A stretch of 20,778 nucleotides of DNA, taken from positions 1 to 20,778 of the IMG/VR virus record IMGVR_UViG_3300025880_001313; one strand, written 5' to 3'. Below are positions 1 to 20,660 of the stretch, one piece after another. This DNA comes from a virus. The translations under genes were made by a program, and so were the position numbers. Numbering within the stretch: position 1 is the stretch's first letter; every line of letters starts with the position of its first letter. The notes beneath the pieces were generated by a model, which saw only the letters and a list, made by a program, of their open reading frames with translations, ran no database searches and had not been told where the DNA came from.

Positions 1-854
1 AGACTGCTGCCGCATCTGACAAATATACTAAGTCAAGTGTCGCTAAGTTCAAAACGTCGAAGGATCCAAACGATCTCGAGATTAAGAAAGTTGCACCGAA
101 ATCGACTGGTGAATACAAGAACTGGTACACTGACGACGGCACGAAAATCGTAGCTGAAAAGATAGTTCTGCCAAATGGAGATAAAGCGTGGTTTAGTGGG
201 GGCAGGCAGATAGATCCACTAAAACTCCACTCTGAGGAACCTAAGTCAGCACACAAGAAACGTATGGTTGTTCAAGAGCAGATTACTCCTCTCATCGAAG
301 AGATATACAAATCTCAAGGAAGAAACAAGGTGGGTGAAAGCGATAGTGGAGTGCCACGGTACGAAGATAAACTTCGTGTAGGACCTTTACAGCTCGCAGA
401 GCAAATGGGTCGTTGGGCTCAAGAGAACGACTTCGCAATGGAGGATATAAGCAGAAGCGCGATTCTTGACAAAGCTATGACGGACATGTACAACGATGCT
501 GACCGTAACGTTGCGGAAATCAATAGCATTGTGCCATATCTCGAACAGAACATGTTAATGTATAAGAGCAACATGTCCCTAGAAATGTTTAGAAAAGCTA
601 ACAATAATGGCAAATCTTCCGAGCAATTAAGCCCGATGAGCATGGTTGAAATAAACGCTGCGATCATAAACGACTTGAAAGGTGATGAAGAATACTACAC
701 CGGCCAGCCTGATCAAGAACTTTTATCTCAAGCGTACTCGACAGGTTGGGCGAAGTGGAACGCACTTGAAGATGCTGAAAGGCGTAAGTGGGAAAAACGG
801 AGCAGCGACAGTACCAACGGCTTTCTTGAGTACATGGAGAGTCTACTTAACTAA
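1..854 (+). CDS. C-terminal part of unknown virion-type protein (5' partial)
   Basis: The frame is open from base 3 to the stop at 852-854, giving about 283 residues with no start inside the window that must be used. A methionine codon at 264 is internal, because the 260 bases before it stay open and read as ordinary hydrophilic protein. The visible part is charged, mostly helical in character, rich in Lys, Glu, Asp and Asn, and has no membrane segment or catalytic motif that I recognise. It ends in YMESLLN, 16 bases before the next gene, and so belongs to the same operon as the two large virion-type genes downstream. By position, just before a gp16-sized protein, it could correspond to a T7 gp15-like internal core protein. 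That is an inference from gene order, not from sequence similarity. Confidence 0.75.
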   Translation, partial: TAAASDKYTKSSVAKFKTSKDPNDLEIKKVAPKSTGEYKNWYTDDGTKIVAEKIVLPNGDKAWFSGGRQIDPLKLHSEEPKSAHKKRMVVQEQITPLIEEIYKSQGRNKVGESDSGVPRYEDKLRVGPLQLAEQMGRWAQENDFAMEDISRSAILDKAMTDMYNDADRNVAEINSIVPYLEQNMLMYKSNMSLEMFRKANNNGKSSEQLSPMSMVEINAAIINDLKGDEEYYTGQPDQELLSQAYSTGWAKWNALEDAERRKWEKRSSDSTNGFLEYMESLLN

Positions 855-870
855 TAACTGGAGTAATAAA

Positions 871-3800
871 ATGAGTAAATTAGGATCATTAGTTCGTGAG
901 AACTACGGCGGAGGTAGCGACGCTCCCTTCGTCTGGTCAGATGCTGATACCATTAAGACGCCTGACGGTCAACTGCATCGTCTGGAGTCTATAGATGCTC
1001 CAGAGATTGTTCGTTTTGATCAAGATGGGGTTGCCGACCCCGATAGAAAAGCTACAGCGGGCGCCAATATTGCGAGCATTGCGGCGCAGCGCGCGGCGTT
1101 AGAGAACGGGTACACTAACATTGTGCCTGTTCTCAACGAAGACGGTAGCCCAAAGATGGATGCTACAGGCTCTCGCCCCATCATTCGCCTTCACAACGCT
1201 GAAGGCAGAGACTACGCGTCGGAAGCCATTCGAAGTGGGATGTTTAAACCCACACGATTCTCTTCAGATGATGAACGCGCTTTACACGATTGGGCAGAGT
1301 TCACAGGCGCAGAGTCAGACTTTGATCAAGCGTCGGTAGCTGTGCAAAATGCTATAGCAGCAGAGACTGGCGAGCTGAGAGCTCGTCCAACAGCCATCAA
1401 CGAAGAGCAGTACTCGTATGGTGGATACTCTAGCAACTTAGCGTTTCGTAAATACGATCGCACATTAAATAACAAATCTCTTAACCCTATGTCTGATTCG
1501 TGGGAGCAAGGTTGGATCGGCGCTGAAGAAGGCGCCTATGGCTTCTTAGAGCTACTCGGAGACACTACTGGAATAGAGAAGCTAGCTGAGTCTGGAGAAA
1601 TCGGCGTGTATAGAGCGCGCGCTCAACAAGAAGAGTACGCCGACATACTTACGGATTGGAAAGATGTCAACGGTATAAACTCTGGTGTTAGCTACCTCGT
1701 TAACAATGCTGCAATGTCGTTGCCTTACATGGTGACAACAGCTGCGGCTGGCGTGGCAGGTGCTGCCGTAGGAGCTGTATCCGCACCTGTTCTTGGCACA
1801 GCTGTGGCGGTTGGTATTCCATCACTCGTCTACGCTGGTCAAACATGGAACGAAATGGAAGGCGAAAAGAATGCAGGTGTTGCACTAACTGCTGGCGTTA
1901 TACAGGGTGCTCTTGATAGAGTAGGTGTCGGAGCTCTTGTAGGCATGAAGCCTAAGGATATGGGCTTCGCTGCCGTGAGTAAAATCATGACGTCTAAAGG
2001 TATGCCGAGAGAGGCTGCAGAGCAGTATCTAGCTGAAGCGACGAAGCAAGAGATTGCAGACGTCGTGCGCGCTTCAGGTGAAGCAGCTGTAGCGAAAGTT
2101 GCAGCTAAACAAGCAGGCGTCAACTTTCTTAAGTCAGCGTCTAGAGAGGGCGTCACCGAAGTTATGCAAGAAGCAACTGGATATGTTTCAGCTAGCATCG
2201 GCTCAGATAAAGAGTTTGAATGGGAAGAGCTGAACCAGCGGATGATAGCCGCAGCTATTGCAGGCTCTGCTTTAGGTGGTGCATTCTCCGTACCAGGTTC
2301 TGTCGTTGATGGAGCTAAATATCATGGACTCATGGGAGACACTGAGATAGCGGATCATACAACTGCTGTCAAGTCTGCCATTTGGGCTGAGCAAGAAATA
2401 AAAGAAAACGGTTATATTCCTTCAAACAAAGAGAACCTTGCTGAGATCCACGCAGAAATGAAAGCTGGAGATTTCGGTACATTAGACGAGTACTCTGATC
2501 TGTGGCGCACAGCCGAGAAAGAGAAATCAACAGCTCAGCGCGTATGGGATAAGCTCTCTAACTTACCAGCTCTGTGGCAAGGATCTACTCGTAATCTCTT
2601 TTCAGACAGTATACTAGAACGATCACGCACTGCTCGCATTGCTGCCGATCTTTTTGGCGGCAACCCAGATCGCGTGTTCTCTGGCGACAGTTTTGAAGAT
2701 GCTAAGCACCACAAGGTCGCTACTTACAAGAACTTTATGACGCGCCCTGAAGAGATGTTCTATCAATTGAATGGTAATAAACCGTTTACTCAAAGCGATA
2801 AGAAACGAGTCAGTGCTAAACTGTACGACGTTATGAAAAAAGCGGTTGATAAAGATGGTAACTTTGATGCAGAGCTTGTTCCTAAAGATCTTGACAGCCG
2901 TGAAGCGTACATAAAGGTAGCAAAAGAACTCAACGCGTTGTCAGAGAAAATGTACGCTGACCAGAAGGTGCACAACCCTGAGCTTGGATACGTTAAGAAC
3001 TACTTGCACACATTCAAATCGCTTGATAAACAAGCGGTTCTCAAGAAGCGCACACAGTTTCAATCACTTCTACAGTCAGAATATGGCATGACTGCTGCGG
3101 AAGCTGATCAGATTGCTGGCGCTATCGTCGACGATCCTAACGTAGGAACCGTAGAAGAAGCGTTCTCAGTTGTATCAGGAGGTATTGTACCTGGATCTCA
3201 TAAGAAACGTACGCTCAACCTTGCACAGAAAGAGAAGTTCGCTGAGTTCATGGAACAAGATCTGTTTGCTAACGTATCGCACGCTACTAAAAGTGCAGCA
3301 CGATACGTTGCGCACCGTGAATACATCGGTCAGAACGGTAAGGTGATAACAACCATGCTCGATAGAATGAGTAGAGAAGGTCTCTCTGCCGCTGAAATCG
3401 GACGCATTGCTTCTGGTTTAAAAGACTATCTTGATGCTGAGTCAGGTACTTATAACCGCCCCACTTCGGAGTTTGGTAAGAAGGCGGAGGCGATTCAGAA
3501 GCACGCAATGATGCTGATGACGTTTGCAGGATTACCACTTGCTGTTTTCTCTTCGTTTGTAGAAGCTGCACTCATAGCTCGTGGTGTTGATGGCGCAGGC
3601 CTTAAAGTTATAAAGTCATTCTCTAAAGACTTTGCTGAGGGCATGGTAAACTACATGAACGACTTTGCTCTCACAGCGCAAGGCAAGACAAGCTATCGTA
3701 ATGATACAGCCGCTGAAGCTCGCATTCGCGATGCGGGATACTACGAGTGGGATGTGGGTGCGGCCACCACAACAGGTGTTTCTGAAGTTCATGCCAGACA

Positions 3801-4734
3801 CGCAAACTATTACAAAGCGTTCTTCAAAGCTAATGGCTTGACTCAATGGACTGATTACACTCGAGCTCTACGAGCATCATTCGCTGGAGACTTTCTCAAT
3901 GACAACATGGTGCTGATAATGAATCAGCGACGTGCAGGCACTCCTTACACTCGTGAAGTGCAAGAAGCAGAGCTCAAGCTGCGCAACCTCGGTTTAGACA
4001 TTGATCGTTTTTCTCCCATCTATGAAATGGTTGGAGCTAACATTAAGCTATCTGATGAGCAACAAATGTATTACGATGATTCAGTGCGCACTCTCACGTA
4101 CGGCTTCGTCAATGACGCGATTGTATTGCCTCAAGCATCCAACAGACCTTTGATGTATCAAGATCCTAGGTTTGCGCTGTTCATGCAGTTCCAAGGTTTC
4201 ATTTCAACCTTCACTACTAAGGTTCTTCCAAAACTTTGGCGTGACGCGTTTGGAAACTCTACTCCAACAATGATGTATTCAGCGTGGGCTACAATGATGA
4301 CTATGATCATGCTAGCTTTCGTGTCGCAGGCAATGAAAGACTGGATTAAGTACGATACGTTTGACGAAGGAGACGATGAGTATCCCTCAAAGACCGCAGG
4401 CAACCCGTATCTTAACACGCCAGAGTATATACGTCGTGGCGTGCTTTCGACAGGTCTGCTTGGAATCAGTGAACGCGCAATCAATACTGTGTTTCCTCTG
4501 TACGCGCAACGTAGCGACAACCCAGGAGACTGGCTGTACAATCAAGCGGTAGGCGAAAGCCCTGCGCTTGGCTATGTACAGAGAGTTGCGGGTGCTTCGT
4601 ATGCCCTCGCGTCTGGAGACGTCGGCAAAGGAGTAGAGCAAGGGCTGAAGGCAGCACCTGTCTTTGGACCGTTCAACCTCGCAAATAGAAAGATTGGCAA
4701 CTATGCTTCGGATTGGAACTTTAATGGAGAATAA
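871..4734 (+). CDS. Large internal virion (ejection) protein with N-terminal SNase-like domain
   Basis: The product is 1287 residues, close to T7 gp16 (about 1318), and lies in the gp16 position of the structural operon. I chose ATG 871 because GGAG lies 7 bases upstream; the frame is open back to 682 but that would overlap the previous gene by 170 bases. Residues 20-127 look like a staphylococcal nuclease fold: DADT (D26), then R37, D42 and E45 with the same R-x4-D-x2-E spacing as SNase R35/D40/E43, and R102 as a candidate for R87. T7 gp16 instead starts with a lytic transglycosylase, which I do not see here. Hydrophobic Ala/Gly/Val-rich segments lie near residues 280-320 and 465-485, and another hydrophobic stretch (TMMYSAWATMMTMIMLAFV) is near residue 1140. 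The rest is helical and unassigned. Role as an injected internal protein is inferred from size and context; nuclease activity is inferred from motifs. Confidence 0.72.
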   Translation: MSKLGSLVRENYGGGSDAPFVWSDADTIKTPDGQLHRLESIDAPEIVRFDQDGVADPDRKATAGANIASIAAQRAALENGYTNIVPVLNEDGSPKMDATGSRPIIRLHNAEGRDYASEAIRSGMFKPTRFSSDDERALHDWAEFTGAESDFDQASVAVQNAIAAETGELRARPTAINEEQYSYGGYSSNLAFRKYDRTLNNKSLNPMSDSWEQGWIGAEEGAYGFLELLGDTTGIEKLAESGEIGVYRARAQQEEYADILTDWKDVNGINSGVSYLVNNAAMSLPYMVTTAAAGVAGAAVGAVSAPVLGTAVAVGIPSLVYAGQTWNEMEGEKNAGVALTAGVIQGALDRVGVGALVGMKPKDMGFAAVSKIMTSKGMPREAAEQYLAEATKQEIADVVRASGEAAVAKVAAKQAGVNFLKSASREGVTEVMQEATGYVSASIGSDKEFEWEELNQRMIAAAIAGSALGGAFSVPGSVVDGAKYHGLMGDTEIADHTTAVKSAIWAEQEIKENGYIPSNKENLAEIHAEMKAGDFGTLDEYSDLWRTAEKEKSTAQRVWDKLSNLPALWQGSTRNLFSDSILERSRTARIAADLFGGNPDRVFSGDSFEDAKHHKVATYKNFMTRPEEMFYQLNGNKPFTQSDKKRVSAKLYDVMKKAVDKDGNFDAELVPKDLDSREAYIKVAKELNALSEKMYADQKVHNPELGYVKNYLHTFKSLDKQAVLKKRTQFQSLLQSEYGMTAAEADQIAGAIVDDPNVGTVEEAFSVVSGGIVPGSHKKRTLNLAQKEKFAEFMEQDLFANVSHATKSAARYVAHREYIGQNGKVITTMLDRMSREGLSAAEIGRIASGLKDYLDAESGTYNRPTSEFGKKAEAIQKHAMMLMTFAGLPLAVFSSFVEAALIARGVDGAGLKVIKSFSKDFAEGMVNYMNDFALTAQGKTSYRNDTAAEARIRDAGYYEWDVGAATTTGVSEVHARHANYYKAFFKANGLTQWTDYTRALRASFAGDFLNDNMVLIMNQRRAGTPYTREVQEAELKLRNLGLDIDRFSPIYEMVGANIKLSDEQQMYYDDSVRTLTYGFVNDAIVLPQASNRPLMYQDPRFALFMQFQGFISTFTTKVLPKLWRDAFGNSTPTMMYSAWATMMTMIMLAFVSQAMKDWIKYDTFDEGDDEYPSKTAGNPYLNTPEYIRRGVLSTGLLGISERAINTVFPLYAQRSDNPGDWLYNQAVGESPALGYVQRVAGASYALASGDVGKGVEQGLKAAPVFGPFNLANRKIGNYASDWNFNGE

Positions 4735-4736
4735 TT

Positions 4737-7700
4737 ATGGGAAAATTTAACACTAACGCAGGCTCAGGCAAGACTAGCAAGCTGCGTCAGCTGATGTCCC
4801 GACCCGAATCAGGAGTTACGTTACCTGTCGAACCGGTCGTCGATGCGGTCGGTGAAGTCGCACCGATCACACAAACCGGAGAGATGGCTGCAGCCGCCCC
4901 AGCACGCGACAATCCTGTGCTCAACGCGCCTGCAATAACAGAAGATTACAGTTCGTTCAATCGATCAGCGATGGATCCGTCTGTTAATCTGAGGCGATCA
5001 GAGGATCTGCCTTTGCCTCCTGAAGAAGTGAGTGTAGAGCAGCAGGATATGCTTGACTATCAAGCGCAAGATCGCAATAGAGTTGCTAATCTCAGAGACA
5101 GAGCGGTTGCTCCAGAGCCTGTTGTACTGAATCGTCAAGCGGTCGCATCCGGCATAGTTGATGGAGGTATCTTTAACCGTGCAAATCAGATGGCGGACTC
5201 CGCAAAGACAGGTACCCTCGTGCCTCCACAGTCTCTGCGAAACACCGCTGGATTTCCATTAGCTGAGGAAGGTGCGTCAGGTGTAGAAATCGCAGATGCG
5301 ATAGCGGCCACGCGGGAGGGATCGGTTCAAGCTGCTTTCAATCGAGTCGGCGCTATAGACAATACTGATCCACGCAATCCAGTAATAGATCTTGATATGA
5401 TCAAAGCAGGTTCTATTGTTACTGAGCACATGCTCATGACGCTATCTGAAGGTGACACAAATCTAGGCATTGATACTGTACCTGATCCTGTGAGTGATGC
5501 GCAAGGCATCACGGAATCAGCGGTTGCGTCTTCTGATATGTTCACAGAAAGAGACACCAGCAATCCCAAAGGATTTAAACGTGTGGCTAAGCAGCAAGGT
5601 AACGCGCACATCGGGCAACAAATCGCTCTCGAGTATCAACGCTTAACAGGTAACGAAGTGCCTACAAAGATACCTACAAAAGAAGCAGAAACTCTTGGCG
5701 ACACATTTAAAACTATGTGGGCGATTCAAAATCCTAACCTAGTTAAAGTAACTAAAGATCCAATAACTCTACAGAATTACTATGAGTTTACTCCACAAGG
5801 TGAAGATGTTATCGCTCAAGGCGTCGACACGCGTCGTAGATTGTTCCCATCTAAAAACGTTCAACCAGCTAAGACTCCGCCACCGAGAGGAAATCTTGTG
5901 GGCGATGTTGGTGACAACCAAGTGAAGAAAGTTCAAGGCCAAGTTGGTAAACAATCATTTGGTAAAGTTCTTGAACAATCGATGGTCAATCTTTCTACAA
6001 TCCCGCATGTCGTTGATTCACAACGTCTTCGCATTATCTACGCCACAGCGCTTCCTGTTTTGCAATCTGGTGATTACACTCGCGTGTCAGCTACGATGCA
6101 CAGCATAGGTCCAAGCAAACTGAAATCTTATGAAGCAAAACATGGACCAGATATTGCGATGATTGAAATAGAGAAAGCTGCAGATAAGTTAGCTCAGTCT
6201 ATCCAAGCTCTCGCGCAGGAGTCTGAGGGAGCCAACTACCTGACGTACGCCATTCAAGGATTTCAAGGTCGCATCTCACCACAGCAGTCTAAGTTTAATC
6301 CTGTGTCTTCGAAGACTGTGAGGATGGCAACTCGTAACGCCGTCCCATCTCCAGCAAAGCCTGGATCTCGTGTTGAATACAATCTCAAGCAGATGTACGC
6401 TGGCGCGTTAGTTCCAGGAGCCGATGGTGTATTGCCGGCTGAGCGTGAAATTAAGTTTGAAGCGTACGCCAGTAAGCTTGAAGCGTGGGGAGATCGCCTA
6501 GCGGTTGCGCTAGAGATGACAGACGCAGAATCAAAGGCCATCACAGGCGCTATTCAATCTGGCATGCCCTTGACTGACCCTGCGTTCCCTCTGATAAAAC
6601 CTTTAAATCTTGACGTTGAAGCAGATGCAGAACTTATCCAGAGCATTCTTGAAAAAGGTGAGGATGGACCAGCGTATGTGGACGGTCTCATGGACGCCGC
6701 TAAGTATCTAAAAGCTCGTCGGGCCAAGCAAACATACTACTCTTATTTCAATGGTTACATTGACGGTAAGACGAACGGTATCGCGTCTAATGGTATTCAG
6801 ATGGGTAATACAGAAACTGCGTATCGCACTGGTGTTCTGCGCGCTAGCAAGACTGATTACTTAGATGATGGTGATGTGCGCGACGCGTTGAGGCAAAGTC
6901 TTCTTCATGCAATTGATAACGATGGATTCGATGGAAGCATAGGTAACATCGCCTCTGAGTTAGATGCAGTGGCCACGGCAGTATTCTCACATCGTGAGAT
7001 GTTGAAAGAAACAACTATGGTCTTCGCATACGGTATGGACGCAAGGCATATGCACTTCAGTTTAGATGCCACGTTTGATTTGTTAGAAACAGATCCAAGT
7101 CTTATCAAAGATGAGGCAACGCGAGTTAAGTTTGTGTCCAGTTCAGACGCCGTTAGAAAAGCTTTAACTGATCCAACAACAGGCACTACGGTTGGTAGAA
7201 CGCTCTTAACAATGTTCAAGCCGCAGCTTGAGTCGGTCATATCGCCTGAAGCATTAGCCGCTCGTTCTATCATGCGAGCATCATCTGTTATGTTTGCATC
7301 TATGAACGCGCTCATGACTATGACTGGACCTACCGGTAACGACCTACACTTCGGACGAGATACGCAGATACCTGGCGAAGCCACTGAGACTAAGTATCGA
7401 ATTACGGGGGACAAAGTTCAAGGTGGATCTCGAGAGTTCACTTCGTACCATCAGCAATCTGAGCCAACAGCAATGGCTCCAAAGAAAAAGGCGGATGGTG
7501 CAGTGATATACGGTGGGCACGCCTATGGAGGGTCTGTTGTAGGCCCTGTGCAAGCTCTTGATGCAGCCACCGTAGCTCTATCAACTACTGGAAAGACTTG
7601 GAACAGATTGAAGCAAGCCAGTGGTGGGAACCCATACACTCTAACTATCTACGATGCTTTCAAGACTGATGCAATGGGCTATGACGTCATTCTTGAGGAT

Positions 7701-8216
7701 GTTAATAAGAATTGGTTAGACGTCTCTATGGAGTGGTCTTATCTTGAAGCTAATCAGAAGTCACTGCAAGATACAACTGCTAAGTGGAAAAAGGAGATTG
7801 CAAAGCGAGATCCTGAGTCTCCAGTCTCTGAGAACGAAGCTGCGTTCTTGAGATGGATAATGAAGGAACATGATGATGGTACTGGAAAATTTACCATGCC
7901 TAACTTTGAATCACGAGTTGTTAACGGAGGAGCGTTTGACAAACGTGGTATAAAAGCGAGTGAGGCAACTTCAGATTTCCAAGAAGCTATGCGAAAAGTT
8001 GGGTACGATTGGATGTCTCCTCCTGAGGAGGTTACAGTTTTACAACTGCGTACTTTTGTAGATCAAATAGGAAGCCTGCTTGCTGTTCCTAGTAGACTAG
8101 ATCGAATCATTAAGTACACCAACAAGCAGAAGCAGCAGCTACGTAAAGAGATCTTGGCTAAGGGGCATAAACATCCATCAGGTCGAGTCACTGCGTTGCA
8201 GTACTATGCGCATTAA
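4737..8216 (+). CDS. Putative virion-type single-subunit RNA polymerase (N4 vRNAP-like catalytic domain)
   Basis: The product is 1159 residues; GGAG with 7-base spacing overlaps the end of the previous gene. The first 400 residues are Pro/Ala/Asp-rich and unassigned. The C-terminal two-thirds carries the ordered catalytic motifs of T7/N4-type RNA polymerases. GFQGR at 508-512, followed by FNP, matches the T/DxxGR region. YIDGKTNG has motif A Asp at D676. R753-x3-K757-x7-Y765-G766 fits motif B exactly. PVQALDAA at 937-944 aligns with T7 PNFVHSQDGS (Gln where T7 has His784). TIYDAF has motif C Asp at D973. None of the catalytic residues is missing. It is very different from the gp1-like polymerase on the opposite strand. 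Placement in the virion operon suggests a packaged, injected polymerase, as known for N4; N4's protein is about 3500 residues, so this is much smaller. Promoter specificity and packaging are inference. Confidence 0.68.
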   Translation: MGKFNTNAGSGKTSKLRQLMSRPESGVTLPVEPVVDAVGEVAPITQTGEMAAAAPARDNPVLNAPAITEDYSSFNRSAMDPSVNLRRSEDLPLPPEEVSVEQQDMLDYQAQDRNRVANLRDRAVAPEPVVLNRQAVASGIVDGGIFNRANQMADSAKTGTLVPPQSLRNTAGFPLAEEGASGVEIADAIAATREGSVQAAFNRVGAIDNTDPRNPVIDLDMIKAGSIVTEHMLMTLSEGDTNLGIDTVPDPVSDAQGITESAVASSDMFTERDTSNPKGFKRVAKQQGNAHIGQQIALEYQRLTGNEVPTKIPTKEAETLGDTFKTMWAIQNPNLVKVTKDPITLQNYYEFTPQGEDVIAQGVDTRRRLFPSKNVQPAKTPPPRGNLVGDVGDNQVKKVQGQVGKQSFGKVLEQSMVNLSTIPHVVDSQRLRIIYATALPVLQSGDYTRVSATMHSIGPSKLKSYEAKHGPDIAMIEIEKAADKLAQSIQALAQESEGANYLTYAIQGFQGRISPQQSKFNPVSSKTVRMATRNAVPSPAKPGSRVEYNLKQMYAGALVPGADGVLPAEREIKFEAYASKLEAWGDRLAVALEMTDAESKAITGAIQSGMPLTDPAFPLIKPLNLDVEADAELIQSILEKGEDGPAYVDGLMDAAKYLKARRAKQTYYSYFNGYIDGKTNGIASNGIQMGNTETAYRTGVLRASKTDYLDDGDVRDALRQSLLHAIDNDGFDGSIGNIASELDAVATAVFSHREMLKETTMVFAYGMDARHMHFSLDATFDLLETDPSLIKDEATRVKFVSSSDAVRKALTDPTTGTTVGRTLLTMFKPQLESVISPEALAARSIMRASSVMFASMNALMTMTGPTGNDLHFGRDTQIPGEATETKYRITGDKVQGGSREFTSYHQQSEPTAMAPKKKADGAVIYGGHAYGGSVVGPVQALDAATVALSTTGKTWNRLKQASGGNPYTLTIYDAFKTDAMGYDVILEDVNKNWLDVSMEWSYLEANQKSLQDTTAKWKKEIAKRDPESPVSENEAAFLRWIMKEHDDGTGKFTMPNFESRVVNGGAFDKRGIKASEATSDFQEAMRKVGYDWMSPPEEVTVLQLRTFVDQIGSLLAVPSRLDRIIKYTNKQKQQLRKEILAKGHKHPSGRVTALQYYAH

Positions 8217-8301: not shown

Positions 8302-8568
8302 TCATTTCAGTAGACCGTTCGCAGCAAGCAATCGCTTGATGCCTGTCGAATGAGTGTCTCTTATCTTGTTAGCTTCACTCTCTTCCATTCCAGCGTCTAT
8401 GTTCTGTCTGAATGCTTCGTCTAGCATAGCGTCATTGAGCCCTGGAGTGTACGCCAAGTCAGCGTTCAGTCCAAATGTCTCAACGTACTCCATGTCGTCA
8501 ATGGTTGCTCCTCTCAGAGCCATTATGTTGTAGTTAGTCTTATCAGCAGAAGAAGTATTTGCTGTCAT
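8302..8568 (-). CDS. Small acidic protein of unknown function, last gene of the minus-strand arm
   Basis: The product is 88 residues, with GGGAG 7 bases before ATG 8568. Its start overlaps the end of the RNA polymerase gene by 26 bases, so translation is probably coupled. The sequence is acidic and soluble, with no Cys, no membrane segment and no motif I recognise; the C-terminal half (SEANKIRDTHSTGIKRLLAA) looks helical. It ends just before the bidirectional terminator. T7 has small host-takeover genes close to gene 1, but I see nothing here to assign such a role. Confidence 0.7.
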   Translation of the reverse strand: MTANTSSADKTNYNIMALRGATIDDMEYVETFGLNADLAYTPGLNDAMLDEAFRQNIDAGMEESEANKIRDTHSTGIKRLLAANGLLK

Positions 8569-10732
8569 CTATGTCTCCCACGTTGAGCTTACCTATTGCA
8601 GGTTGCTCTACGCTATCAGTGTTGTTGGTTACTTGTTGTCGTATGGTGTCAAAGAAGTTATCACTTGAATACATATCTATGAATACCTCTTTGGTTCTCT
8701 GAAGTAAAACATCTACATCAGATGCATGAGTGGCAAAGCTGTCATGCACAGCTCCGAACGTGCCGTCCCATTCAGCTATCACAAGAGCCATGTGTGCTGC
8801 ATCCATCGAGTGGATAAAGTTAGGGGATATACCAGACATAAAACCTCTTATGTTAGGTCTATCTGTGGGCGTTTTCAGTACATGCTTTACATCCTTGCCA
8901 TTCAATCTAGCTCTTGCCTTGAAGTCTACAGTTGTGAAGTTCTCATAGCGTGCAACGAAGCCTGATGGAGTTGTCCACTCTATCACACTCTTACCGTTAC
9001 CGTATGTCAGTTCGTATGAGAAACTTTTAATAGCGATGGATGTATCATTCAATTCTATCAACTCATCTTCAGACAGCAGCTTCTGACTTAACAATTCTCT
9101 GCGTCTAGCTTTCAACTCGTTGAACTCTTTGCGTGAGCCACCGACTAACTCGTGTTTTCCTATTTGAAATTGAGCTAGTTCCTGTAAGTAAGACATTGTC
9201 TGCAAAGGCCCTGGACACACAGCATCGATTGCCTTAACTAGTAGCAAAGCTAACTTGTCACAATCCTTACGAGTTATCCCGTACGCGTCAGTGAACTCTT
9301 CAGCTCGAACATCGAAGTACATGTTCTCTGCTATCTTACCGGCTCCTGCTGAGTAGGCTCTCGTCATGCTGCCTCTCTTACTGATGCCTTTTCTTATGTG
9401 TTTCATAGGCATTCTCTGAAGCAATGAAGATAGACGCTTATCCGTTGCTGCTAGCTCTATCAGCTTCTTTGCAGTTTGAACGTAGAAGTCTTTCTGAATT
9501 ACTGTAGGAATCAGACCCACAAGTTCGCCTGTTAGAGTGTCTTTGCTTATAGCACCTAAGTGCTGCCACCCGTTATTTGAACCATCGATAGCTACAGGAA
9601 GTTGAGTTAGCCCTGTCTCCTGTACAAATCTCCACTCATAGCAGCTCGCTAAGAACATGTAAGGCTTCTCAGCTTTAAGATCTAACTCGCCTTGAAGGAT
9701 CTTATCCCAGTGGTTCATAGTCCAGTTCGCTCTATCGTTGAGTGTCATCTTGTCTACCGAGATGTCTTCCAAGCCCTCTTCTAAGAGGTGCGCGCGATAG
9801 TCTTGCTCACACCACTCAGGAATATCATTGAGAGCGTAGTGTTGGTTGTAGCAGGCGGCGGTATGAACCGCTAACCAGAACTGGCCGGCATCGTCAATAG
9901 GCTTAGCGTCTGCAAATAGAAGCAAACCCTTTGCCATGTCACAACTTTGATAGTTTAAAAACGGCTCTGTGTTATAGATTCGTCCACGGTAGTCTGCTTC
10001 AAAAGTCTGATAGAACGAATCCCAGTCTTTGAGGACTTCTGCCTTTGACTTTATAAACTTATACTCGATGACCTTGCTGCGCCGTCTCTGTTCTTTAGCA
10101 TCATTCTCGTGAGGTTCAGACGGTGGAGCCACTATCTTATCAATGATCGCATGATTGATCGTCCAGCGTACATTCTGTAGTTTCTCTATCGCTACCACGT
10201 AAGGTGCGTCAGCATCGTACAAGAAGTCATGCATTTTATGAGCGTTCTTAGTGACGGCTTGTGGCTCTTTGAAGCTGCCTAATATAGTTTCTTTCACTAA
10301 CTCTAACGGTATATCCGCAAGCTCTTCCCACTTCGGAGTTGCTTTGAGAATATAAGACTCATCACGCCGTGTTGGTGGAATGAGTTCAGCAAAGCCATGG
10401 TACACAAAGCCTTCGATAAACAGGTCACCAATTGTAAGCTGATGCTCTGTCTTCACAGGTTCTCGACTGATAAGTCTTGCGACCGCTTTACCTATCACCA
10501 TTGATGTTGCCGTCAGTCCTGCTTCACCTGGAAGATAGTCGCTTGATGTTCGTGTGAATTGGGATTGAATAATCTGGAATGAAACCGCGACTAGCTTCTC
10601 CAACTTGTCTTCCCAACCGTGGTGAGTTTTAACGAGCACACCACCCCTGTTTGCCTTCTGGTTATTTAGATTAACGCGAGAGACTTTGCGGTTCAGGTAC
10701 TCGATCACTTGATTTATTGCATACAAATTCAA
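8543..10732 (-). CDS. T7 gp1-like DNA-directed RNA polymerase
   Basis: Single-subunit phage RNA polymerase, expected to transcribe phage middle and late genes from phage promoters. Motifs in order: DYRGR with R251, VAIDGSNNG with motif A D383, K452-x7-Y460 for motif B, SPNFIHSMDAAH, and VHDSFATHA with motif C D664. At 729 residues it is about 150 shorter than T7 gp1 (883), and the position of R251 (R425 in T7) shows that the loss is in the N-terminal, promoter-contacting and product-handling domain. Motif B reads YS where almost all relatives have YG. No ATG is available: the frame begins after a TAA with TTG 10732 or TTG 10726. AAGGGG lies 2 and 8 bases upstream respectively, so the second TTG is the better-spaced start. 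A rare start codon may keep expression low. Confidence 0.93.
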   Translation of the reverse strand: MNLYAINQVIEYLNRKVSRVNLNNQKANRGGVLVKTHHGWEDKLEKLVAVSFQIIQSQFTRTSSDYLPGEAGLTATSMVIGKAVARLISREPVKTEHQLTIGDLFIEGFVYHGFAELIPPTRRDESYILKATPKWEELADIPLELVKETILGSFKEPQAVTKNAHKMHDFLYDADAPYVVAIEKLQNVRWTINHAIIDKIVAPPSEPHENDAKEQRRRSKVIEYKFIKSKAEVLKDWDSFYQTFEADYRGRIYNTEPFLNYQSCDMAKGLLLFADAKPIDDAGQFWLAVHTAACYNQHYALNDIPEWCEQDYRAHLLEEGLEDISVDKMTLNDRANWTMNHWDKILQGELDLKAEKPYMFLASCYEWRFVQETGLTQLPVAIDGSNNGWQHLGAISKDTLTGELVGLIPTVIQKDFYVQTAKKLIELAATDKRLSSLLQRMPMKHIRKGISKRGSMTRAYSAGAGKIAENMYFDVRAEEFTDAYGITRKDCDKLALLLVKAIDAVCPGPLQTMSYLQELAQFQIGKHELVGGSRKEFNELKARRRELLSQKLLSEDELIELNDTSIAIKSFSYELTYGNGKSVIEWTTPSGFVARYENFTTVDFKARARLNGKDVKHVLKTPTDRPNIRGFMSGISPNFIHSMDAAHMALVIAEWDGTFGAVHDSFATHASDVDVLLQRTKEVFIDMYSSDNFFDTIRQQVTNNTDSVEQPAIGKLNVGDIDDSKYFFC

Positions 10733-10801: not shown

Positions 10802-12418
10802 TTATAGATCGACCGCTTCAAACTCCAATTCAACGGCGTCAGTCAGTCGAGTAGTACTTGGATCGTAGGTTGCTGCGCCTGCGTCACCAGTCCTGCCTGT
10901 GAAACGTGATTTGAGTACACGAAATTTAATTGTGTTCCGTGTTGTTTCATCTTCAGCAATTAAGTTACGAGCAAAAGCAATGATGTCGAACGAGATTTGT
11001 TTGATTGAACCACTGCCTTTGATGTCGTCGATAGACGCAAGATGGCCTTCCTCGAACGATTTACCGTCTTGTGCTTTGCGCAAGTGAGATATTAGACCAA
11101 GCCATACGTTATGTCTCTTCACTACTTTGAGCAGGTCTGACATGATCTTATCGATCGCTTCGTTACCTGACAGACCTTTGCTTCCTTCAGATACAGCTAT
11201 CGTTATGTGGTCTAGTACAAGATATTTGCAACCCATGAGGCACATGTACTCGATCTTATCAATCAGAGAGCTATCTCCCACTGAACCTTGGTGATCGAGC
11301 AGCACGAGCCGTTCATCACCGAACACTTTATCGAAGCCTGCTTTGAGATCCTTCTCGTCAAGTGGTGGAGGATCAGACACAGATTTCTTAAGTGACATAG
11401 AGATGAATTTCTCTGCTGTATCACCAATGCTTTCCTCGAGACTGATGAGGCCGATGCGGCTGTCAGTAGTGTCAAGTAAATCTAAAGCAATCTCTTTGAT
11501 CACTGTTGACTTACCTGAGCCAGTGCCACTCGTAAATAGAGTGATCTCGCCGTATCTCATGCCATCCAGTTTGTCGTTGAGACCTTGCAAGCACGATGGA
11601 TATGGTATTGATTTGATCTCTTGACGAGATTTGAAGTGTTCCCACACAGCATCACCTGAAACGATGTCAGCAGGTGACCACTCTTTTGCATCCCATATCG
11701 CACGAAGAATAGAAGTCTTACCGTGCTTAAGATAAGACTCGTTAGCGTCTTTCTCTGGCAGTGTAGCAACGTATGCTTTGCCTGTCTTGATGATCTTAGC
11801 GATTGTGTCTGTTGCCTTTTCGCCAGCATCATCGTTATCCATCATCAGTATTACTTTTTCAAAGCCATTTATCCAGTCACGTTGCCGCAGCACAGCGTTA
11901 GTGTCGCTTGCACTTGGAACACCTACGACAGGATAGATAACGCCTTTGTAGTCCTTGAATGCTTGTGCTACAGACATAACATCTATTTCACCTTCGCAGA
12001 TTACTAACGTTCTGCCACCAGAAAACTTAGACTGACCGAACATTTCCACAGACTTGAAGTCACCGCTGACAGCAAACGATTTTGGTAGCCTGCGTTCTTT
12101 GTATGCGACTGTAACTCCCTTCTTAGTGTATGGGTAATAGTGTGATTGTGGCTTACGGTTCTCATCGAATCCCATCTTGACGTCGAAGAAGTCGACTACC
12201 TCCTTAGTAATACCACGACTACTAAGAGCGTGACCACTAAGATCGTGTATGTGGGTGAGGTTAGTAGCTGAAGTATAGGGGGTAGGTCCATAGTCTTTCA
12301 TCTTATCTCTTTCTAGTTTAGGTTGAACTGTTCTCGAACATGAGAAGCAGTGGGTGTGTCCATCTTCGTATAAGTGGTTTGCGTCTGAGCTTCCACAACT
12401 ATCGCAGGGGACTTTCAT
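10802..12418 (-). CDS. T7 gp4-like primase-helicase
   Basis: Bifunctional replication protein of 538 residues (T7 gp4: 566), joining a DnaG-type primase to a hexameric DnaB-type helicase. The N-terminus has a zinc-binding module C5-x2-C8-x15-C24-x2-C27. TOPRIM motifs follow: VICEGEIDVMS and ILMMDNDDAGEKA. The helicase half has Walker A SGTGSGKST (K303), Walker B KYLVLDHIT, SHLRK, and the C-terminal arginine-finger region IKQISFDIIAFARN. Its ATG overlaps the stop of the upstream GIY-YIG gene as ATGA. A second in-frame ATG at 12301 (residue 40), preceded by an A/G-rich stretch, would give a product without the zinc module, comparable to T7 gp4B; use of this internal start is a guess. Confidence 0.95.
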   Translation of the reverse strand: MKVPCDSCGSSDANHLYEDGHTHCFSCSRTVQPKLERDKMKDYGPTPYTSATNLTHIHDLSGHALSSRGITKEVVDFFDVKMGFDENRKPQSHYYPYTKKGVTVAYKERRLPKSFAVSGDFKSVEMFGQSKFSGGRTLVICEGEIDVMSVAQAFKDYKGVIYPVVGVPSASDTNAVLRQRDWINGFEKVILMMDNDDAGEKATDTIAKIIKTGKAYVATLPEKDANESYLKHGKTSILRAIWDAKEWSPADIVSGDAVWEHFKSRQEIKSIPYPSCLQGLNDKLDGMRYGEITLFTSGTGSGKSTVIKEIALDLLDTTDSRIGLISLEESIGDTAEKFISMSLKKSVSDPPPLDEKDLKAGFDKVFGDERLVLLDHQGSVGDSSLIDKIEYMCLMGCKYLVLDHITIAVSEGSKGLSGNEAIDKIMSDLLKVVKRHNVWLGLISHLRKAQDGKSFEEGHLASIDDIKGSGSIKQISFDIIAFARNLIAEDETTRNTIKFRVLKSRFTGRTGDAGAATYDPSTTRLTDAVELEFEAVDL

Positions 12419-12909
12419 TCGTACTCTCTTTCTTCCTTAAGTTGGATGTTGTTTACTTGGTTTGTCCAGTGGTCGTCACCTATCATGTAGGATCTATCAC
12501 TCGGCGGTATGAACTTAATAGCTCCTATCTGCTTGTTGTAGAAGCGTGGAGTTACGTTATCACTGAGTTTGTCAGTCAGTACATTGAGCTTGTGTTGTAA
12601 GTTACACTCTACGTATGTGAGCCAGCCTTTTGTTTCACAGTTTATGATCATTACAAATTCAAAGTTTGCTTTGCCATGTTCTTCAAACGCTTCGTTCAGC
12701 CATCTGCTCGATCCGGTGTAGAACTCCCACTTGTTAGGAGTTTTAAACTTCTTTCTTCGAGTTTTACCAGGAACAATCTTCGATCGCTCTGACCAATATG
12801 CCTTTTTCCCTACGTATAACTGTTCGGTTACCGTATTGCGAACCAAGTATATGAACCCGTGATTCTTATCTGGATCAGGAGCTATTCCCTTCCAATGATG
12901 ATTGCTCAT
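12415..12909 (-). CDS. GIY-YIG family endonuclease-like protein
   Basis: The product is 164 residues. The GIY-YIG signature is visible as GFIY (18-21) and YVG (32-34) with ten residues between the FIY and YVG triplets, followed by an Arg in the first helix (YWSER). A likely catalytic Glu lies in TYVECNLQH, and then an Asn/Tyr-rich end (RFYNKQIG). The family cuts DNA in homing, repair and restriction. The gene overlaps the exonuclease upstream by 35 bases and the primase-helicase downstream by 4 bases, so it is well integrated in the replication operon and not a recent insertion. GAGG lies 9 bases before the ATG. It might be a mobile endonuclease of T4 Seg type or a domesticated recombination nuclease; substrate unknown. 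Confidence 0.7.
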   Translation of the reverse strand: MSNHHWKGIAPDPDKNHGFIYLVRNTVTEQLYVGKKAYWSERSKIVPGKTRRKKFKTPNKWEFYTGSSRWLNEAFEEHGKANFEFVMIINCETKGWLTYVECNLQHKLNVLTDKLSDNVTPRFYNKQIGAIKFIPPSDRSYMIGDDHWTNQVNNIQLKEEREYE

Positions 12910-16520: not shown

Positions 16521-16697
16521 TGATAATCCTTTCTACTTTAAGGGAGCTCACTCTTAGGCGAGTGACCTCTTTATAGCGCACGCTCGCAAGAGCGGGCGTT
16601 AGAGCGGTGTTAAGCGCTTTACTGTAGCTTAGCCCAATTATATAGGGTATGGCTCTCAGAAGCGATCTCTCGGCCTCTAAGAGCCATTAGCGAGTAA
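16521..16697 (-). other. Structured intergenic region between reductase and small genes
   Basis: Going leftward it holds: an 8-bp stem ATGGCTCT/AGAGCCAT (16649-16656 with 16680-16687) directly after the reductase stop; a TATAAT-like sequence on the minus strand near 16637-16642 with no convincing -35 box; the palindrome AAGCGCTT (16613-16620); a 25-bp hairpin repeat also found at 20001-20025; and a hairpin CACTC/GAGTG near 16545. No run of U follows the first stem, so it is not a standard terminator. The density of hairpins suggests transcript processing or a promoter region for the genes to its left. Confidence 0.45.
16577..16601. repeat. 25-bp hairpin repeat, copy 1
   Basis: A 25-base sequence is identical in sequence and orientation to 20001-20025. 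It forms an interrupted stem CGC-A-CGCTC / GAGCG-G-GCG closed by a GCAA loop. Both copies are intergenic, 56 bases (this one, minus strand) and 33 bases (the other, plus strand) from the nearest gene start. Neither is followed by a U run. Exact duplication in non-coding DNA argues for a binding site, such as a phage promoter or a replication or processing signal. Confidence 0.8.
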
Positions 16698-17594
16698 TCA
16701 AGTGATGTCTACTAGCTCACAGACATCTCCTGAGCAGGCCAGCGTTTGACTTCCTGCAGTGTTGTCCTCACTTTCGTACTGTGATAGGTTTTCCCATTCA
16801 ATGCTGTCAGGCATTATCGCGTACATTTCAAGGTACTCTTCTTCTGTGCACTCTTGGTAAGGTGCCTGCTGGTACGTGTGTTCGCTGTAGGGTAAGAAAG
16901 AAACACCTGACATCTCATCGAAATGTTTGTATACAAAAGCACCGACTTCAATCCACTCGTCTGACTTGACGTTGATTGTAACCGAAGGCTTATGCTCACA
17001 CCAATGTCTCTGGTAAGCTAACCACATTTGCAGCTGCTCAATTGCTGAAGTGTCAGCAGTGACTACGGCTTTGTTTGGTGACTTCATAGGGAAGCTGAAC
17101 ACAACAGTTTGATCTGGCTTCATTACGCAAGGTTCTGATGGGATCCCCTGGTCTTTCATGAACTGTGTTAGTGGATCTTTAATGTCTCCACGCACTGTTC
17201 TTATGTAGAAAGGGCTGTGGCGGGCATGTATTCCCGAAGCTGAGTCAACAAGCTGCGATACCGTTCCAGATGGTTTCACAGCGCAACAGGCTGTGCTTTG
17301 CGGTATGCCAAGACGCTTTGCCCACTTAGCGTTGGTGTTGATTACCACATCTCTTACGTGCTCCAACATCTTATCTAACCCTTTGTTTTTCAATGTAGTC
17401 AAGGGGTTATCCATAATGCCTGTCATTGAAACACCTAATAAGCTTTCTTCTTCAGTGTTCGTCTTCCATATCTTACGAAGGTAAGGGAACTTAGTTTGTG
17501 TTGCTTGTATTGTACCAATAATAGCAGCGATCTCAGCCTTGCGGACAAGATCATCCACGGTATCCGTAGCACGTACTACGATTTCGCTTAGATT
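16698..17594 (-). CDS. nrdJ: Class II ribonucleotide reductase, exon 3 (C-terminal part)
   Basis: Third exon of the split reductase, join(19184-18194, 18020-17986, 17594-16698), 298 codons plus stop. Residues NLSEIVVRATDT continue directly from the micro-exon end FC, as in unsplit monomeric class II enzymes. An ATG at 17597 opens the same frame but is the last bases of the intron, not a true start: no ribosome site precedes it and TAA is the codon before. Further family sequence is clear: GVSMTGIMDNP, the barrel segment PSGTVSQLVDSASGIHARH, and a C-terminal CSGDVC (C629, C634 of the spliced protein). This C-x4-C matches the swinging-arm pair C731/C736 that re-reduces the active site in the Lactobacillus enzyme. 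The protein end is intact, which argues strongly that the gene is functional. Confidence 0.93.
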   Translation of the reverse strand, partial: NLSEIVVRATDTVDDLVRKAEIAAIIGTIQATQTKFPYLRKIWKTNTEEESLLGVSMTGIMDNPLTTLKNKGLDKMLEHVRDVVINTNAKWAKRLGIPQSTACCAVKPSGTVSQLVDSASGIHARHSPFYIRTVRGDIKDPLTQFMKDQGIPSEPCVMKPDQTVVFSFPMKSPNKAVVTADTSAIEQLQMWLAYQRHWCEHKPSVTINVKSDEWIEVGAFVYKHFDEMSGVSFLPYSEHTYQQAPYQECTEEEYLEMYAIMPDSIEWENLSQYESEDNTAGSQTLACSGDVCELVDIT

Positions 17595-17985
17595 CATTTA
17601 TGTTCACTAGTAGACGCTAGTTACTAGCGGTAGCATGTTATAGCCCAATCAGCAAACTTAAGCAGCTCCTCTGGAGAGGCACCACCTTTCACCATGTTTG
17701 CACGGTGAGAGACAACCATTACATTGCCTTCACGATTCATTTTCATTCTATAACTTCTTTCTCCTGCACGTTTCCGTACAGATCAGACTATATCATCACC
17801 CTAAGTTAATAGGGGCAGGGCGCTTCCACTCGCTTGAGTGTATGGACTTCATATACTGTTCTAGTATGTATGTCCTAGTCGTTGAACCTTCAGGGGCTTC
17901 CCAGCCCTAGCTTGGCTGCTGATTACCATATGTTTCCACGTAGGCTTCCCAGCAATTCACCCTGTTTTACTTCTGCTATCTATTA
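17595..17985 (-). ncRNA. Group I intron 2 in the ribonucleotide reductase gene (391 nt)
   Basis: P1 pairs exon TTCTGT (17991-17986) with the guide GCAGAA (17976-17971), including the conserved U-G pair at the splice site. P10 pairs exon 3 bases 17593-17589 with 17982-17978 over five bases. The core has recognisable P (GCTGGGAAGCC), Q (AATCAGCAGCCAAGC), R (GTTCAACGACTAG) and S (GATATAGTC) elements. P7 is GACTA 17880-17876 with TAGTC 17790-17786. The intron ends in G (17595). It begins TAATAG, giving in-frame stops right after the exon as in T4 td. Q and R resemble subgroup IA introns of phage genes. A 40-codon reading frame lies after the core; there is no full homing endonuclease. Splicing itself is inferred. 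Confidence 0.93.
17624..17746 (-). CDS. Possible 40-residue protein inside intron 2
   Basis: An ATG frame lies downstream of the S/P7 element, in the P9 region of the intron. The product reads MKMNREGNVMVVSHRANM at its start, then GASPEELLKFADWAI and CYR, with amphipathic character and a protein-like composition. Two in-frame ATGs (17746 and 17740) are available. The AGGAG upstream is 14 bases away, too far for a good ribosome site. The stop codon falls within a perfect CGCTAG/CTAGCG stem. It carries no LAGLIDADG, GIY-YIG or HNH motif and is too short for a homing endonuclease. It might be a remnant, a splicing aid, or noise. Confidence 0.35.
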   Translation of the reverse strand: MKMNREGNVMVVSHRANMVKGGASPEELLKFADWAITCYR

Positions 17986-18020
17986 ACAGAATTGGTATGG
18001 TCGAAGTATTATTTCACTGC
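17986..18020 (-). CDS. nrdJ: Class II ribonucleotide reductase, 35-nt micro-exon (exon 2)
   Basis: These 35 bases, joined to the last T of exon 1, read C-SEIILRPYQF-C. The first codon TGC is split T|GC across the junction and gives the radical-generating cysteine of the NPC motif (C331, equal to C408 of the Lactobacillus leichmannii enzyme). E333 equals E410. The last codon TGT gives C342, equal to redox C419; the spacing of 11 matches exactly. Upstream intron 1 ends in G (18021) and the downstream intron starts with TAA. Total exon length 991+35+897 stays in frame. Without this exon the protein would have no active site. Confidence 0.92.
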
Positions 18021-18193
18021 CTCACACTGTGGGGATGTAGTAGCTTACCCACTGTGCGCTGGACTATCGCATCAGCCTTTCGGCCGCCTCTTCGCTTAGT
18101 CTCTCACGCTGGCTTTACCCTTGCGCCCTGTCGCTCTGCTACGAGCTTCCAAGTCAATCAGAAGAAGTTTTAAATCCGCACAATTAAACGCTT
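18021..18193 (-). ncRNA. Compact group I intron 1 in the ribonucleotide reductase gene (173 nt)
   Basis: P1 is seven pairs between exon AATCCGT (18200-18194) and guide GCGGATT (18179-18173), with U-G at the splice site. P10 can pair exon 2 bases GCAGT with 18180-18184 (two wobbles). P3 is CTTCTTC (18167-18161) with GAAGAGG (18093-18087). P5 is GCTC/GAGC. P7 is GACTA (18101-18097) with TAGTC (18066-18062). P8 is GGCC-GAAA-GGCT (18085-18074). P9 is GTGGG/CCCAC (18052-18048 with 18033-18029). The last base is G. The first bases complete a TAA stop with exon 1, so unspliced message yields a 330-residue fragment. At 173 nt it is smaller than the well-known small bacterial tRNA introns (about 200-250 nt). 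No reading frame fits inside. Confidence 0.88.
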
Positions 18194-19184
18194 ACGGATT
18201 GGTACCAAATTCATAGGATGCGTCACGCCTCCCATTCTTGGCTGCTTGTTTCTTTGAAGCCTCACGGTTGAATATACCGCGCTCTCCAGAACCACTCTCG
18301 ACTAGTGCCATCCATTCACGCATGAACGATACGCTGTCGGGTTTCTCAGTGTACGCGACTGAGTTGTTTGCTAGAGCTCGTTGTGGATTAGTTTCCCACC
18401 AAGCACCAGACTTAGCGTGACGCATGCGATCATCTGATAAGTTAGATAGACTGATCATAGCTGAGCGCCTAACGCCACCTACAACAACAACTTCTCCAAT
18501 CTTACACATTATATCGTGAACTTCTAATGAGGACAGTCTGCGGCCTTTAGCGCTTTCAAACACTCGTGTGACGAAAGTGAATAAATCGACCAGTGGTGCT
18601 GGACCGCTGGCGCGACCACCAAATGATTTCAATCGAGCACCAGCGGGTCTAACCTTGGACATATCCCACTTTGGTTTCTCACCGGTGTATAGTAGTGCAA
18701 TGACCTGACGGAGTGCTTTCGCCCAACCTTCTTTGCTGTCTTTAACAATTACCGTTGTGTCACTCTCAAACATTTCGTCTGGGATTTCAGGAAGCTTTGT
18801 AACAAATTGACGCTCCACGGAGAACCCCACTCCCGTACCACACAGTAGAATGAACATAGCTTCATCAAAAGCTTTAGGATCATCGATGGGTAAGTAAGAG
18901 CAGTTAAACCCAGCAGTGTTATCACGTGACAAGGCGGTTCCTGCGGACATCATTGCTCGCATTGACGGAAGAACCTCAAGAGATAAGATAGCGTTTTCAA
19001 TTTTATCATACGTTTTCTTATCTTGGGCGTGCGGCTTGATAACGTTAATCATGTAACGATCAACTGTTTCCGCCCAGGTCTCGCGTCTGCCTTCTTCGTC
19101 TAGCCACCGCGCGTAACGTGAGGTCGCAATGAACTGCTGGTAGTCCGTCCCAAGGTGGTTGTTAGAGGTTACGTTAGTTTTCAT
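18194..19184 (-). CDS. nrdJ: Class II (adenosylcobalamin-dependent) ribonucleotide reductase, exon 1
   Basis: First exon of the monomeric B12-dependent reductase, which makes deoxyribonucleotides without oxygen or a separate radical subunit. AAGGAG abuts ATG 19190, leaving no spacing, while ATG 19184 has six bases, so I start there. Seen in order: SMRAMMSAGTALSRDN, FNCSYLPIDD with C95 (equal to C119 of the Lactobacillus enzyme), FILLCGTGVGFSVE, VRPAGARLKSFGGRASGP, GGVRRSAMISLS and SGERGIFNREAS. It ends in YEFGTNP at the first base of the radical cysteine codon, where intron 1 begins. The spliced product is 640 residues against about 739 in Lactobacillus. Frame, motif order and all five expected cysteines are intact after splicing. 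It follows the MazG-like gene by about 20 bases. Confidence 0.94.
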
Positions 19185-19204
19185 TAGCATCTCCTTAGTG
19201 TGTT

Positions 19205-19904: not shown

Positions 19905-20058
19905 TATTCCTTTCATATGAAATACAAAATGTATCCGTCCCTTATAGAGGAACGGGGGCTGGGTTTTGCTAAGATGTAGCCTTAGACTTTTCTTCTTAAT
20001 GCGCACGCTCGCAAGAGCGGGCGTTCTTCCTCTCCCTTAAACATTATAGGAATCTATC
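19905..20058. promoter_or_regulatory. Divergent control region
   Basis: This 154-base gap separates the leftward replication operon from the rightward terminase-like gene, so it must hold at least two promoters unless transcription enters from outside. It has a 7-bp stem CCGTCCC/GGAACGG (19935-19955, one wobble). It has TATAAGGG on the minus strand (19946-19939), reminiscent of the CTATAGGG start region of T7-family promoters. It also holds the second 25-bp hairpin repeat (20001-20025), and TATAAT-like sequence on the minus strand near 20048. AGGA stands 7 bases before the plus-strand ATG. No element alone is a convincing promoter. Confidence 0.5.
20001..20025. repeat. 25-bp hairpin repeat, copy 2
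   Basis: Exact copy, same orientation, of 16577-16601. The stem CGCTC-GCAA-GAGCG is extended by CGC/GCG after one A-G mismatch. It stands in the divergent control region, 33 bases before the plus-strand gene and 96 bases before the minus-strand operon's first codon, a fitting place for a promoter or regulator site. Confidence 0.8.
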
Positions 20059-20478
20059 ATGACCGTTACACCCATCACTAAAAAGAAGTATCCTGCTGGG
20101 ACTCATCCGAATAGCCTCGCAGCTCTCACAGCCACGTGGGATTCAGATAAAGCACGCGAAGCACAATTGAAGTCCGCGGCGAGCCGGTCAGCAAATTCAC
20201 AGAAGCGTAATGACATGAAGGCTCGTTTAAAGTTGTTGAAGTCCATGGAGGAAGAGCTTAGAGCAGACAAAGTTGATTCTGTAGATGTTCTTCGTCTTAT
20301 TGCTTACGAAAAGATGGAGGAAGGCGATATGGATGCTGCTATTGAGATATTTAAATCAATTGCAGAGTTTGAAAAGCCTAAGCTTGCTCGCGTTGAAAGC
20401 AAAGTTGAAGAGATTAAAGCTGAATCACTTACTGATGAGGAGCTCATGGCTCGTATTAAAGAGGCACTGAAAGAATAA
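20059..20478 (+). CDS. Probable terminase small subunit (DNA packaging)
   Basis: The product is 139 residues. The N-terminus is basic and low in hydrophobics (TKKKYPAGTHPNS; KAREAQLKSAASRSANSQKR), fitting a DNA-contacting region. The middle is helical (ARLKLLKSMEEELRADK; VDVLRLIAYEKMEEGDMDAA). The end reads AEFEKPKLARVESKVEEIKA followed by SLTDEELMARIKEAL. The last pattern, a helical repeat and then a PKL segment and a TDEEL tail, is common in small terminase subunits, which recognise the packaging site and pass DNA to the large subunit. The gene is alone on its strand here, and tandem repeats follow its stop. The assignment rests on pattern resemblance; another DNA-binding protein is possible. 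Confidence 0.55.
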   Translation: MTVTPITKKKYPAGTHPNSLAALTATWDSDKAREAQLKSAASRSANSQKRNDMKARLKLLKSMEEELRADKVDSVDVLRLIAYEKMEEGDMDAAIEIFKSIAEFEKPKLARVESKVEEIKAESLTDEELMARIKEALKE

Positions 20479-20490
20479 GCAGATGCAATT

Positions 20491-20616
20491 TGCGCCTTGT
20501 CGGTTAGGCGAAAAGAAAGTCAAATGCGCCTTGTCGGTTAGGCGAAAAGAAAGTCAAATGCGCCTTGTCGGTTAGGCGAAAAGAAAGTCAAATGCGCCTT
20601 GTCGGTTAGGCGAAAA
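20491..20616 (+). repeat. Four tandem 34-bp repeats, each with a hairpin
   Basis: Three perfect 34-base units (20491-20524, 20525-20558, 20559-20592) are followed by a fourth cut after 24 bases (20593-20616). Each unit has arms CGCCT and AGGCG around an 8-base loop TGTCGGTT, then the A-rich spacer AAAAGAAAGTCAAA. There is no coding frame. They lie 12 bases after the probable small terminase gene and just before a terminator. Period, symmetry and place suit protein-binding iterons, for example a packaging or replication site, or structured RNA at the 3' end of the message. Confidence 0.92.
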
Positions 20617-20620
20617 ATTA

Positions 20621-20660
20621 CCCCAGAGCATCCTATTAAAGGATCTCTGGGGTTTTTTTT
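20621..20660 (+). terminator. Intrinsic terminator after the terminase-like gene
   Basis: CCCCAGAG (20621-20628) pairs with CTCTGGGG (20645-20652), with an inner ATCC/GGAT stem, followed by eight T. It ends the plus-strand transcript and lies between convergent genes; on the minus strand the hairpin is followed by a weaker TAATTTTT, so it may act in both directions. Confidence 0.93.

Follow-up and report, generated by a model that had tools for sequence, protein, structure and literature searches.

Bacteriophage N4 follows a known programme in which a packaged single-subunit RNA polymerase (RNAP) is followed by a second phage RNAP. Packaged single-subunit polymerases have so far been treated as a hallmark of the Schitoviridae, as proteins of ~3500 residues. 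The N4 virion RNAP (vRNAP), gp50, is composed of an N-terminal domain (NTD), the RNAP domain (about residues 998–2103) and a C-terminal domain (CTD) which inhibits the polymerase (PMC12633501). The catalytic set of N4 mini-vRNAP is made up of motifs A, B and C and TxxGR, and its structures show the initiating nucleotide bound by K437 and R440 (PMC4496689). One survey of N4-like viruses removed vRNAP candidates shorter than 2500 aa (PMC10654107).

Here, we examined a 20,778-nt window of viral DNA (positions 1 to 20,778 of IMG/VR record IMGVR_UViG_3300025880_001313), in which the initial annotation had proposed, from motifs, a second single-subunit RNAP in the virion operon of a phage that also has a gp1-like polymerase. 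This observation as a whole was confirmed: conservation among relatives, a match to the N4 vRNAP profile and the predicted fold identify the protein, P0001, as a single-subunit RNAP.

The P0001 gene and its neighbourhood

The P0001 frame (4737–8216, + strand) runs uninterrupted from ATG to stop and encodes a compact N4-type, vRNAP-like polymerase of 1159 residues. All the motifs quoted at the outset were found in it: GFQGR with R512, IDGKTNG with D676, R753-x3-K757-x7-Y765G, PVQALDAA and IYDAF with D973. As judged by profile alignment and conservation, R512 (6270–6272, + strand) belongs to a T/DxxGR-type motif (N4 R424), D676 (6762–6764, +) is the motif A catalytic aspartate (N4 D559), K757 to Y765 (7005–7031, +) constitute motif B (N4 K670 to Y678) and D973 (7653–7655, +), placed also by the AlphaFold2 model, is the motif C catalytic aspartate (N4 D951). 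As a single sequence, P0001 gave no match in Pfam, PHROGs or PDB sequences (phmmer), and tblastn found zero matches among 50,697 phage records. An hmmsearch of the PDB with an 11-sequence profile of the P0001 family likewise returned nothing. The protein appears to have been unannotated until now, including in its cultured relative, and no description of compact vRNAPs was found in the openly licensed literature. Two longer IMG/VR contigs and a single contig from a MAG encode exact copies of P0001. Contig L208 (CALGTL010000115.1), from an ‘uncultured Dehalococcoidia’ MAG, encodes a protein identical to P0001, the only match among bacterial genomes, and is probably mis-binned phage DNA.

The P0001 gene closes a virion block, in which the genes of two more giant proteins precede it. 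Directly upstream lies protein U (682–4734, + strand; start codon uncertain), which contains no cysteine, matches PHROG 6958 (virion structural protein, 9.9e-24) and is likely an ejection protein. It is preceded by the 3′ part of the gene of a second giant virion protein, UU (3–854, +), also without cysteine and ~1270 aa long in L001. We considered whether U could supply the NTD or CTD missing from P0001. Neither U nor the other upstream proteins matched the N4 CTD, the profile of the window family matched only the N4 RNAP domain, and a hydrophobic stretch of U matched the N4 NTD weakly (54%). This identity of U is therefore not claimed, and the hydrophobic stretch is no more than a lead.

On the other side, convergent with the P0001 gene, the gp1-like polymerase at 8543–10732 (− strand) proved real, with matches to Pfam RNA_pol (1.1e-51) and PHROG 414 (5.4e-95). 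It carries 7 cysteines and its nearest relative is gp30 of Roseobacter phage CRP-7 (35%). The phage is probably not T7-sized, as had been assumed, since the window is a fragment and relatives reach ~58 kb (58.1 kb for the isolate CRP-7, up to 57.7 kb for related contigs). Judged on the genome size and RNAP genes of CRP-7, these phages also differ from Schitoviridae, which have genomes of ~70–75 kb and a giant vRNAP.

Several other features were observed in the window. A group I intron (17764–17995, − strand; Rfam RF00028, E 1.2e-20) interrupts a B12-dependent ribonucleotide reductase gene with coding parts at 18192–19190 and 16698–17597; the CRP-7 ribonucleotide reductase is likewise annotated in separate pieces. 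A SegE-like GIY-YIG homing endonuclease (12415–12909, − strand; PF19835, 3.9e-26) lies between the primase-helicase and exonuclease genes. Directly past a 139-aa ORF (20059–20478) lies a tandem 34-nt repeat (20491–20616, + strand), in which the hairpin unit CGCCTTGTCGGTTAGGCG occurs about four times; a hairpin resembling a terminator, with a T run, comes next at about 20625–20656.

Conservation, lineage and predicted fold

Relatives were gathered with the gp1-like RNAP as bait, and the convergent gene was taken from the adjoining DNA. In most loci with enough sequence, an ORF of 1150–1500 aa was present at the convergent position. Loci L026–L029, which encode a relative of the gp1-like RNAP (40% identity over part of it), had no convergent compact vRNAP within the 4 kb scanned, and may mark a gain or loss of the two-polymerase system. 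The 32 non-redundant proteins encoded by convergent genes formed four BLAST clusters which were joined by profile comparison. Scanning directly with the window-type profile yielded 80 loci. The P0001-type gene is tail-to-tail with a gp1-like RNAP gene in 77 of these, ~260–2400 bp apart, and in the other 3 the contig ends within 724 bp.

Among 11 window-type relatives, with identities down to ~20%, only ~40 columns were invariant or nearly so. They include R512, D676, K757, G766 and D973, with Y765 and D942 present in 10/11. Seven columns were invariant in the full set of 32 proteins: M1, R512, D676, G699, R715, G766 and D973. In a larger set of 45 non-redundant window-type relatives (<85% identity), R512, R529, D676, K757 and D973 were found in every member and Y765 and D942 in 44. 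Motif B as initially drawn was thus only partly borne out: K757 and Y765 are kept, whereas R753, present in only 25 of the 45, is not a feature of the family. Near-invariance among proteins of ~20% identity indicates that the motifs are more than chance matches. In the CRP-7 branch, R479, R497, D678, Y774 and D979 align with R512, R529, D676, Y765 and D973, respectively; placement of the motif-B lysine is less certain, K762 being invariant there.

We then compared the family with the polymerase regions of 13 Schitoviridae-type vRNAPs, including that of N4. With hhalign, the 11-sequence window family matched this set at 98.5% (E 2.7e-15), with just 13% identity in the alignment, and the 45-sequence family at 98.8% (E 5.1e-17, 731 columns), while the controls, one profile reversed and six with shuffled columns, gave ≤0.1%. 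P0001 residues R512, K526, R529, D676, K757, Y765, D942 and D973 align with N4 R424, K437, R440, D559, K670, Y678, D929 and D951, respectively (numbering of D559, K670, Y678 and D951 taken from the N4 sequence itself). The match of the same window-family profile to gp1-like RNAPs was far lower (72.7%, E 3e-5; score of 55 compared to 165 for N4 vRNAP). On these profile comparisons, P0001 is therefore a single-subunit RNAP of the N4 vRNAP lineage and no second gp1. The proposal of an N4-like second RNAP is upheld by this difference in score, by catalytic residues which correspond one-for-one to those of N4 and by a right-hand polymerase fold.

AlphaFold2, run on the 11-sequence alignment, gave a model with a pTM of 0.61 and a confident polymerase domain. 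Residues 1–194 (4737–5318, + strand) are predicted to form a disordered N-terminal tail (pLDDT <50), and the polymerase region, residues 407–1159 (5955–8213, +), has a pLDDT of 70–95 in most blocks, with a low stretch at 874–931. In the model, strand 672–677 carries D676, and D973 sits in the turn that links strands 968–971 and 974–978, a predicted topology as expected for the palm. A structure prediction had been suggested as a check for a right-hand polymerase fold, and such a fold was indeed found: all 50 listed Foldseek matches in the PDB were T7 or mitochondrial RNAPs (best E 5e-14), with modest global TM-scores (0.35–0.40 by query length). Among viral models, the strong matches were phage RNAPs, some of them named as virion-encapsidated enzymes of N4-like phages of Vibrio, Erwinia and Roseobacter. 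The CRP-7 branch was modelled separately, from an 83% identical relative of gp33; this model reached a pTM of 0.63 and again matched RNAPs.

Proposed packaging, candidate promoters and alternative roles

None of the 1159 residues of P0001 is a cysteine; at the frequency seen in the other genes of the window there should be ~14, and assuming independence, the chance of finding none is ~1e-6. Cysteine is also absent from 40 of 45 window-type and all 21 other relatives of P0001, from the complete upstream U proteins (24/24) and UU proteins (2/2), and from the full Schitoviridae vRNAPs (7/7). The gp1-like RNAPs encoded by these phages carry 7–17 cysteines. From this near-total lack of cysteine and from the last position in the virion operon, as for N4 gp50, we infer by analogy that P0001 is packaged in the virion and ejected. 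Absence of cysteine may reflect passage through the tail and periplasm, although it is no unique proof of ejection since other giant phage proteins may avoid cysteine too.

A 30-nt hairpin element is found in the window at 16571–16600 (− strand; AACGCCCGCTCTTGCGAGCGTGCGCTATAA) and, upstream of the first early-strand gene of the window, at 19996–20025 (− strand), with a third copy at L126 397–427. It consists of AACGCCCGCTCTTGCGAGCGTGCGC followed by TATAA, ATTAA or TTTAA, with a 5-bp stem, a 4-nt loop and an exact 19-nt core. Its three copies in the 38-kb viral contig are all on the early (RNAP) strand, each upstream of a gene cluster, and a search of the available virion-gene sequence found no copy near these genes. 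Two of the three precede further stem-loops in the presumed leader. As N4 vRNAP uses hairpin promoters, we consider these elements as candidate promoters of P0001. They could be gp1 promoters instead: because the TATA and purine end also resembles gp1-type promoters, we do not assign them to either polymerase. Searches for repeated hairpins in relatives and CRP-7 revealed no common promoter and no comparable repeats. Sigma-70-like sites were fewer than in shuffled sequences (12 versus 24.6), from which we draw no conclusion since the consensus of the host may differ.

Could the motifs have arisen by chance in a virion protein unrelated to polymerases? Single-sequence searches were blank, as would be expected in that case, but the profile, conservation and control results argue against it, and the fold match together with the one-to-one conserved catalytic set rules it out, leaving it a negligible chance. 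An ejection protein derived from a polymerase, no longer catalytic but with a structural part in genome delivery, would be compatible with the very fast divergence of the family and with the uncertain motif-B lysine of the CRP-7 branch. Yet both aspartates, the T/DxxGR-type arginine and the lysine and tyrosine of motif B are the most conserved positions in a family otherwise of ~20% identity, which fits selection for catalysis and makes such a loss very improbable. Somewhat more plausible, while still unlikely, is an active N4-lineage RNAP that is made late and, rather than being packaged, works within the cell, where it might, for instance, serve late transcription or prime replication. The P0001-type gene always adjoins that of a gp1-like RNAP, and the final gene of a virion operon is not necessarily structural. 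Against this stand that same final position, like that of N4 gp50, and the near-total absence of cysteine, as in N4 vRNAPs and the adjoining giant virion proteins and unlike gp1.

We favour, with a probability of roughly 0.8, a catalytically intact free-standing N4-type RNAP which is packaged, ejected and transcribes the early strand before the gp1-like polymerase takes over. Homology, conservation of catalytic residues, fold, last operon position, near-total lack of cysteine and the almost universal tail-to-tail arrangement with a gp1-like RNAP gene are the computed part of this model, to which we add by inference packaging, ejection, early transcription and the hand-over to gp1. In this picture the head would contain P0001 and the other two giant proteins without cysteine, and all three would be ejected by way of the short tail. 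Once inside the host, P0001 would transcribe the early strand, perhaps starting at hairpin promoters, and its products would include the gp1-like polymerase, which would then take over the later genes. More tentatively, and at somewhat less than even odds, a widespread marine podovirus clade may start infection in this way, with a compact free-standing ejected RNAP delivered beside two giant ejection proteins that are separate and lack cysteine, and with little need for host RNAP, as the unfused counterpart of the N4 machine.

Comparison with described phages

What is new here is a compact free-standing enzyme, its occurrence in non-Schitoviridae phages and its wide marine distribution. The stand-alone form of 1150–1500 aa in many marine phages suggests that the trait is wider than Schitoviridae; the family would offer a minimal candidate for an ejected polymerase without the inhibitory domain of N4, and a conserved dark gene gains a likely function.

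Gp33 of CRP-7 (MK613349), the only cultured member found, is syntenic with P0001: its gene closes the virion block and converges on that of a gp1-like RNAP. This 1235-aa protein, annotated as ‘hypothetical protein’, is a homologue at the profile level with the R, D, Y and D catalytic positions kept; BLASTP detected no similarity between the two proteins, which are linked by profiles only. It differs from P0001 in motif A (EADARQSNAG) and in the placement of the motif B K and R. The published description of CRP-7 classes these phages as non-N4-like and does not identify gp33 as a polymerase (PMC6918029). CRP-7 provides a cultured test case for the two-polymerase programme. Alteromonas phage R22Y also has two RNAP genes, one of them called vRNAP, but its vRNAP has 2083 aa and belongs to an N4-like schitovirus (PMC11705849). 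With T7 gp1 and the RNAPs of Autographiviridae, P0001 shares the overall single-subunit fold and the order of motifs. The gp1 enzymes, including the neighbour at 8543–10732, carry cysteines and match PF00940, whereas P0001 does neither, and their profile score is far below that of N4 vRNAP.

N4 gp50 and the other Schitoviridae vRNAPs resemble P0001 in the lineage of the polymerase domain, the catalytic residues, the final position in the virion operon and the absence of cysteine, and the N4 genome, like that of the phage studied here, encodes another single-subunit RNAP. However, P0001 has 1159 aa (1150–1500 in its family) compared to 2842–3820 aa for published vRNAPs (PMC10654107), and phages with a P0001-type gene are not annotated as Schitoviridae. 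In contrast to N4 gp50, P0001 is free-standing and encoded beside separate giant proteins, and its partner is one gp1-like RNAP instead of N4 RNAPII.
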